From an uncultured Candidatus Poseidoniales archaeon (GTDB lineage: Archaea; Thermoplasmatota; Poseidoniia; Poseidoniales; Thalassarchaeaceae), in the NCBI GenBank assembly GCA_902511005.1, contig CABXDN010000010.1, positions 1 to 42,956 of the forward strand: a stretch of 42,956 nt of DNA. The letters are read 5' to 3'. Below, piece by piece: positions 19,657 to 21,168 of this stretch. A program made the translations under genes and the position numbers. Every line of letters begins with the position of its first letter. The first letter of the stretch is position 1. The notes beneath the pieces were generated by a model. That model searched no databases, was not told where the DNA came from, and saw only the letters and a list, made by a program, of their open reading frames with translations.

Positions 19657-19935
19657 TCAGCTAAAGTGTTCGCTGAATTCCCCCTTGCTCATACGTTCGA
19701 GTGCTTCTTTTGGAGCAAAGCCCTCAACATTAACTCTCATAGCTACACAAGTTCCCATAACTTCACGGCAACGTGCATACAAGTTCGCACCTGTTAGGCG
19801 CTCTTCTTGTTCTGTAGCAATCTTTTTTATTTGATCCATTGTCAAATTTTCAGATGCTTCTTCCCAGGAACCATTACACTTCTTTTTGCCAAGCGCTTGG
19901 ACGACTTTGTGTGGTGTCTCATTACGTGCTGACAT
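19657..19935 (-). CDS. rpl11: Ribosomal protein L11 (uL11) reduced to its C-terminal domain
   Basis: A 92-residue protein matching only the second half of archaeal L11. LTMDQIKKIA, the REVMGTCVAMRVNVEG segment and APKEALERMSKGEF correspond to the rRNA-binding C-terminal domain and archaeal tail. The first 30 residues align with the interdomain stretch. The normal N-terminal domain, with its glycine/proline-rich PPLGP-type loop contacting elongation factors and P0, is absent, and usual length is about 155-165. The 85 bases between it and spt5 cannot encode it in any frame. An AGGAGGT seven bases before the ATG shows that this start is genuine. Gene order (spt5-rpl11-rpl1) confirms identity. 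Confidence 0.88.
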   Translation of the reverse strand: MSARNETPHKVVQALGKKKCNGSWEEASENLTMDQIKKIATEQEERLTGANLYARCREVMGTCVAMRVNVEGFAPKEALERMSKGEFSEHFS

Positions 19936-20020: not shown

Positions 20021-20887
20021 TTATTCAACACGTTGAGTAACACGTACTTGATCCGCTCTTACTGTTAACGCCACCGGAACTGCGGCTTCGAATAGCTCTA
20101 CAGTAACCTCTTCTTTAGACTCAGTGACACGAATTACACGTGCAGACTGGCCTCTAAATGCTCCACCATGAATTTCTACAATACATCCTTCTTCAATTCC
20201 AGATGTAGCAGCTTTTGGTTCTAGGTATGGCAGAACATCTTCTAGTGGAGATTCTCCATCCAAAACTTTCCTACAATTCTTGATTGGAGTTGTAGAAACA
20301 CCAGCTCGACCAATTAGTTTCTCCACATGATGGAAAGCAGAAGCTTCAACGAAAATATATCCTTTCATATAATTTGGACTCAATACTCCGTAAATTTCTC
20401 CTTGAATATCCATTAAAGAACCACTCCCGGAAAGTCTAGCTTGTATTTCTCTTGCTACGTTTTGTTCTTGACCAATACTGGTCTTCAATATGTAGAGGAA
20501 AGATGCAACATCTCCATACATATCTCTAAGACTTGGAGTGATATATTCTTTCTTCCCAATCATCCCTGGGTCTACCCATTCTGAGTTTTTGTAGAGAGTT
20601 TTTGGAGTCACTTCATTACTTTCCGCAATGAAAAGAAGTGGAGTAACTTCTAGTAGAGAGTTACCCATTGCAATTCCTCTTGAGTTTCCAGTTCTAACAT
20701 GTTGTAACATTTCTGCTGGAATTCCGGTTGATTCAACAATTCTTGAAACTACAGCGTCTAAGTCAGTAGGGTCTCCGTAACCATAGATTCCGTCCCATGC
20801 TCCAGGTAAGTCAGCGACTTCATCAGCCCTCTGCATAAGTAGAACTTTTTCTTCATGGCGAACAAATACAGTAAACGCATCAGACAT
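20021..20887 (-). CDS. spt5: Spt5/NusG with N-terminal Nudix-like domain
   Basis: A predicted 288-residue protein, about twice the usual archaeal Spt5 length. Residues from about 120 hold the NGN domain (FLYILKTSIGQEQNVA, NYMKGYIFVEA) and a KOW domain (GCIVEIHGGAFRGQSARVI), which clamp RNA polymerase during elongation. Residues 1-115 look like a Nudix fold: FTVFVRHEEKVLLMQRA, LPGAWDGIYGYG, SRIVESTGIP and VTPLLFIAES. The Nudix box is degraded: the REUXEEXGU core reads SRIVESTGI and the upstream metal Glu is not evident, so hydrolysis is doubtful. The domain may bind a nucleotide or RNA end; that is inference. I prefer ATG 20887 over GTG 20896. It sits in the normal secE-spt5-rpl11 position. 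Confidence 0.85.
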   Translation of the reverse strand: MSDAFTVFVRHEEKVLLMQRADEVADLPGAWDGIYGYGDPTDLDAVVSRIVESTGIPAEMLQHVRTGNSRGIAMGNSLLEVTPLLFIAESNEVTPKTLYKNSEWVDPGMIGKKEYITPSLRDMYGDVASFLYILKTSIGQEQNVAREIQARLSGSGSLMDIQGEIYGVLSPNYMKGYIFVEASAFHHVEKLIGRAGVSTTPIKNCRKVLDGESPLEDVLPYLEPKAATSGIEEGCIVEIHGGAFRGQSARVIRVTESKEEVTVELFEAAVPVALTVRADQVRVTQRVE

Positions 20888-20904: not shown

Positions 20905-21168
20905 TTATTTTGTTAACCATTCAAAGAATGAAGGAAGTAGATTATCCATTAGGTATAACATAACGAAACCAATACCTCCAAGGACAAACATACCTATTCC
21001 ACAAACGATAACGGTTTGACGAAATTCTTCTTTAGAAGGCTTTCGAGCCATCTTCAAAATTCTAGCATAAGAACCAGTTTGAAGGCCACGAACACGGCTT
21101 TCAATTTCATCTTGTAAGCCTTGGACTCTGTCCTCAACCGCACTAGTGTTTGAGTTCTCAATAGCCAT
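20905..21168 (-). CDS. secE: Preprotein translocase subunit SecE (Sec61 gamma)
   Basis: An 87-residue protein with an amphipathic helix (YARILKMARKPSKEEFRQT) and a single membrane span at about 53-74. This is the standard SecE/Sec61-gamma layout that clamps SecY. The N-terminal extension of roughly 35 residues is charged and helical (VEDRVQGLQDEIESRVRGLQ). It is followed after eight bases by the Spt5 gene, as in most archaea. It is cytoplasmic-face anchored in the membrane. Confidence 0.92.
   Translation of the reverse strand: MAIENSNTSAVEDRVQGLQDEIESRVRGLQTGSYARILKMARKPSKEEFRQTVIVCGIGMFVLGGIGFVMLYLMDNLLPSFFEWLTK

Follow-up and report, generated by a model that had tools for sequence, protein, structure and literature searches.

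The Spt5 protein of Poseidoniales, an abundant order of ocean archaea, carries at its N-terminus an additional domain of about 115 residues that is predicted with high confidence to adopt the Nudix fold and whose catalytic glutamates have been replaced. The case analysed here lies in a window of 42,956 nucleotides, the whole stretch of DNA under study. The fused protein is a true Spt5, and its added domain belongs to the Nudix fold without being a canonical Nudix hydrolase, as a test for the catalytic box that defines such enzymes found it absent. We put at roughly 55% the probability that the domain serves the elongation complex as a non-catalytic binding module, recognizing RNA or a phosphate-bearing ligand, with any one named ligand being less probable than the binding of a ligand or RNA as such. 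We are nearly certain of the anatomy and evolution of the domain.

Spt5 is a universal transcription elongation factor, the NGN domain of which sits on the polymerase clamp together with Spt4, whereas the KOW domain reaches to partners. The gene in the window is a single open frame, running from an ATG at 20887 to a stop at 20021 (Table 1). Its product scores 43.8 bits against the NGN model PF03439 (cut-off 22.4) and 117 bits against the Spt5 equivalog model TIGR00405 (cut-off 69.95), the latter match joining protein residues 132 to 286 to positions 1 to 142 of the 145 in the model. The Pfam KOW model alone gives 20.2 bits in the window protein, slightly below its cut-off of 22.3, and the residues comprising NGN and KOW align end to end with solved archaeal Spt5 structures (E 6e-25). 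By homology, the NGN domain would bind RNA polymerase and Spt4, and the fused Spt5 would engage the polymerase clamp. The gene order secE-spt5-L11-L1-L10-L12 is the usual setting of spt5, as the first-pass annotation had recognized, and the fused gene is the sole Spt5 detected in its own genome (72% complete), with the single-contig relative G035 likewise encoding one copy. The earlier view that the fusion involves the main Spt5 thus stands, and a paralogue reading was rejected because Spt5 is single copy. The Spt4 partner is encoded in all 40 genomes searched, that of the window included, and FttA scores above its cut-off in 24 of 25, indicating that the ordinary Spt5 machinery is present. 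Characterized archaeal Spt5 proteins (TIGR00405; Pyrococcus furiosus, 3p8b; Thermococcus kodakarensis, 9bct) resemble the Poseidoniales protein in their NGN and KOW domains, operon position, and the presence of Spt4, but they consist of these two domains only, whereas the Poseidoniales protein adds the Nudix-fold domain before NGN. Insertions specific to individual lineages directly precede the linker, and loci of family f2 (e.g., L111, L113, L114, and L116) have an extra NGN insertion (GRSGGRDPSARRG-type) relative to family f1 and other archaeal Spt5 proteins.

Table 1. Features of the fused spt5 locus in the window and swivel-Nudix fusions in other Thermoplasmatota (locus handles given where outside the window).
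Feature	Position	Strand	Basis or remark
Fused Spt5 gene	20021..20887	minus	288 aa + stop; TIGR00405 117 bits; order-wide conservation
Predicted Nudix-fold domain, presumably inactive, residues 1-~115	20542..20887	minus	Pfam NUDIX in relatives, AlphaFold, Foldseek; catalytic residues lost
Former Nudix helix, residues 43-54	20726..20761	minus	AlphaFold model; 115 fused domains vs 18 intact relatives
Nudix-like/NGN linker, residues ~116-130	20498..20541	minus	Low confidence of full-length model; variable length before linker
NGN core, residues 131-193	20309..20497	minus	PF03439 E 2.5e-11; alignment to archaeal Spt5 structures
KOW motif, residues 236-264	20096..20182	minus	PF00467 E 5e-4; TIGR00405 covers region
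secE, upstream neighbour of spt5	20905..21168	minus	PF00584 above cut-off
Ribosomal protein L11, 92 aa, C-terminal domain only	19657..19935	minus	Downstream neighbour of spt5; only RNA-binding domain matches
Swivel-Nudix fusion, L193	3963-5192	minus	Pfam
Swivel-Nudix fusion, L199	3920-4765	minus	Pfam
Swivel-Nudix fusions, L215, L216, L218-L223, L226-L229			Identified by eye

The first-pass annotation had proposed a Nudix fold for the first 115 residues and named structure prediction as the check, and the prediction bears it out. The AlphaFold model of residues 1 to 124 (pLDDT 89.3, pTM 0.83) displays the Nudix strand order with one Nudix helix, and in a Foldseek search of the PDB with this model the best 50 fold matches were all Nudix proteins (TM-score at most 0.77), including Methanosarcina mazei MutT, RppH, Ap4A hydrolases, NudI, and IPP isomerase. 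In sequence searches, L111, a more conservative relative from family f2, exceeds the Pfam NUDIX (PF00293) cut-off (23.7 versus 21.1 bits, E 5e-5), the N-terminus of the window protein has no Pfam match, its one NCBIfam match, to Nudix IPP isomerase, being weak (E 0.0015), and a search of PDB sequences with the domain profile returned marginal matches to NudC only (E 0.07-0.1). The model of the full-length protein has a pTM of 0.43, with pLDDT under 50 in the linker and over much of NGN, so the orientation of the domain relative to NGN is not fixed by it.

To follow the fate of the active site, we compared alignment columns between 115 distinct fused domains and 18 intact Nudix relatives. All 18 relatives have glutamates at positions 39, 49, 52, and 53 and D-W-E at 96 to 98, and none of the fused domains retains the Nudix box GX5EX7REUXEEXGU with its metal-binding glutamates; the reported loss of catalytic glutamates therefore extends to every distinct sequence compared. 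In the fused domains, position 39 is mostly Asp; position 49, Glu in the relatives, is Arg in 113 of 115; position 52 retains Glu in 103 of 115; position 53 is Cys, Ser, Ala, or Val, with one Ile, and never Glu (0/115); and position 98, the glutamate of the WEH motif, is likewise Glu in 0/115. The window protein follows this pattern in its old Nudix helix, with E49 replaced by R, E52 retained, and E53 replaced by S. Judged from these columns, the domain is presumably non-catalytic. Several other residues are near-invariant in the fused domains and not fixed in the relatives, namely R10 (112/115), D32 (114/115), R70 (112/115), G71 (114/115), Y99 (114/115), and D106 (113/115). The domain, acidic overall with a net charge of -9, evolves faster than NGN and KOW; its median dN/dS is 0.056 versus 0.009 for NGN (Nei-Gojobori estimates for pairs of moderate divergence, which are rough since dS is high in many pairs). 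Because invariant residues have been gained, the domain does not look like a pseudo-enzyme drifting to nothing, and its sequence evolution is that of neofunctionalization under strong purifying selection rather than of decay.

The fusion was found in 271 of 319 Poseidoniales genomes, covering all 22 genera, and in each of the 35 genomes that are at least 90% complete; partial matches that were re-examined turned out to be contig ends or frame breaks. Families f1, f2, and f3 appear to correspond to Thalassarchaeaceae, Poseidoniaceae, and Marine Group III, respectively. At the class level, f3, a family of the sister order, has a plain Spt5 with a short acidic tail only before NGN and no Nudix domain, and none of the 34 Nudix loci fetched from outside Poseidoniales carries Spt5; a fusion spanning the phylum was thus not found. 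One Poseidoniales bin contains a second, two-domain Spt5 of the f3 type together with a full-length L11 (G174:C36, locus L139), most likely through bin contamination. The frame of the fused Spt5 appears split or extended in L109 (2329-4202, UBA250), where one frame of 470 aa overlaps another of 306 aa, and in G179:C19; both are probably assembly or frameshift errors.

We searched 293 genomes of the phylum with a profile built from the domain (A2), and among the matches inspected the Spt5 fusion was seen in Poseidoniales only. Outside the order, the profile recovered Nudix proteins with E-values down to 5e-18, and the nearest relatives, in Thermoplasmatota, either stand alone (~134 aa) or are linked to an aconitase-X swivel domain, and they have intact catalytic boxes. 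Compared with these Thermoplasmatota Nudix hydrolases (PF00293), the Spt5 domain has the same fold and is alignable over its whole length, but it is part of Spt5 instead of standing free or being joined to a swivel, and its catalytic glutamates are replaced, including one by arginine. At the threshold used, no free-standing second member of the family was found in Poseidoniales, save for fragmentary or duplicated copies in a small number of assemblies. Of the 50 domains placed in a tree, the fused ones all lie on one side of a branch supported at 100/100, and among them the f2 sequences cluster apart from f1; this topology indicates that the fusion has a single origin and was then inherited vertically. 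Members of the same Nudix family lie C-terminal to an aconitase-X swivel of the phosphomevalonate dehydratase small-subunit type in several other families of Thermoplasmatota (Table 1); most of these swivel-fused domains have an intact box and conserve the D-W-E-H motif. The aconitase-X swivel domain is associated with the archaeal mevalonate pathway, and the swivel fusions hint that this Nudix enzyme takes part in the synthesis of isoprenoids in archaea. We considered whether the Nudix gene had been freed by loss of the mevalonate-linked aconitase X and rejected this, aconitase X being present in 25 of 25 genomes.

We propose that the fusion arose in an ancestor of Poseidoniales, when a Nudix domain became attached to the start of the sole Spt5 gene, and that Nudix hydrolysis was subsequently lost while the old active-site cleft was rebuilt, one metal-binding glutamate giving way to the near-invariant R49. 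The domain would now be tethered by the linker to NGN as a non-catalytic binding module. Because it is held just before NGN, it should ride on every polymerase bound by Spt4/5, so that each elongating complex would carry it near the upstream edge; binding of a phosphate-bearing ligand, be it nascent RNA, the 5' end of an RNA, or a nucleotide, would then tune elongation or FttA-dependent termination. In Thermococcus, the NGN domain of Spt5 is seated on the polymerase, and at the RNA exit KOW forms a bridge to the termination nuclease FttA (PMC11616081). With arginine in place of a metal-binding glutamate, the cleft may hold a phosphate directly, without metal, and the positively charged conserved replacements in the former metal site make an anionic ligand plausible, whereas the acidic net charge argues against non-specific RNA binding. 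Sensing of a nucleotide signal or of an RNA 5' end, as suggested in the first-pass annotation, is a putative role of the domain. Our working analogy is CFIm25 (NUDT21), which likewise has an inactive Nudix fold with lost glutamates and a tie to RNA 3'-end formation by the CPSF73/FttA family. Human CFIm25 has lost two Nudix glutamates and has no hydrolase activity, yet still binds nucleotides, and in Entamoeba CFIm25 three of the four are Lys and RNA is still bound (PMC3695940). CFIm25 differs in being a separate homodimeric protein that binds UGUA, whereas the present domain is part of Spt5 and its RNA binding is putative. Direct kinship is not supported, as CFIm25 is not among the best 50 PDB fold matches, and the closest sequence relatives of the domain are Thermoplasmatota Nudix proteins. 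Together, the Glu-to-Arg change in the cleft and the CFIm25 precedent favour a module that binds RNA or a nucleotide-like ligand.

The main rival to such a module is a role in protein docking, in which the degenerate fold would serve as a scaffold for a protein, possibly a polymerase subunit, FttA, a ribosomal protein, or another factor, and would bind neither a small molecule nor RNA. Degenerate enzyme domains frequently turn into scaffolds, the acidic net charge somewhat favours this reading, and the conserved residues reach beyond the old box (D106-P107, Y99, W31-D32-G33) and could form a docking surface. The former metal-binding positions have nevertheless changed with a reversal of charge, from E to R, which suggests that the cleft is still used, and we consider docking possible but distinctly less probable than ligand or RNA binding. 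A third possibility, that the N-terminal domain masks the polymerase-binding face of NGN until a ligand or partner is bound, following an RfaH-like logic, would agree with its position directly before NGN and with the varying length of the linker region; permanent masking of a housekeeping factor would be costly where a single Spt5 is found, and the full-length model (pTM 0.43) contains no confident packing of this kind, making auto-inhibition unlikely.

Retention of an unusual enzymatic activity, such as that of an isomerase or of a hydrolase with other metal ligands, might be read from the weak similarity to type 1 IPP isomerase, the persistence of E52 in 103 of 115 domains, and the joining of relatives to the aconitase-X swivel domain. 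It is very improbable given that three of the four canonical ligand positions are lost, one of them to Arg, in practically all sequences. Least credible of all is an artefact, whether an assembly chimera or a mis-called start merging two genes. The first-pass annotation had asked for a survey of related genomes on this point, and the order-wide occurrence of the same open frame and identical architecture in independent assemblies from 22 genera refutes an assembly error; the start is conserved in a single open frame, the exceptions checked being contig ends or frame breaks, and dN/dS is 0.056 across the domain. Internal initiation at M123 may yield some two-domain Spt5, but there is no obvious ribosome-binding site at that codon.

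RfaH and other NusG paralogues are likewise variations on the NusG/Spt5 theme, but these are extra specialized copies, whereas the Poseidoniales fusion concerns the sole housekeeping Spt5 of a whole order. If the proposed role is correct, a conserved third Spt5 domain derived from an enzyme would be a novel means by which regulation is coupled to each polymerase engaged in transcription. The literature that could be searched, which leaves most subscription journals outside, contained no report of an Spt5-Nudix fusion and nothing relevant on Poseidoniales in connection with Spt5 or L11.

The gene immediately downstream of spt5 has also been remodelled. In the window, L11 is reduced to its rRNA-binding C-terminal domain; the same is seen wherever an L11 could be identified in f1 and f2 loci, whereas f3 has a full-length L11 (~157 residues). 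The N-terminal domain of L11 (PF03946), which contacts translation factors (PMC9122527), scored above the cut-off in 0 of 79 Poseidoniales genomes, with 14 of 14 controls positive, ruling out its relocation elsewhere in the genome; in a sample of the phylum, 74 of the 75 genomes from outside the order had it, compared with 0 of 23 Poseidoniales. The L11 truncation and the Spt5 fusion, both of them rare alterations of core machinery, thus affect adjacent genes on the same branch, in Poseidoniales only. Our default reading is coincidence on a long stem branch; it is doubtful, though conceivable, that a ligand- or RNA-sensing Nudix module permanently present in every elongation complex and the L11 loss are connected parts of one remodelling of transcription, translation, and termination. 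Taken with an L11 devoid of the domain that contacts translation factors, the Spt5 fusion would make Poseidoniales a natural experiment in how core information machinery can be rebuilt, and the loss in L11 is possibly as surprising as the fusion itself.
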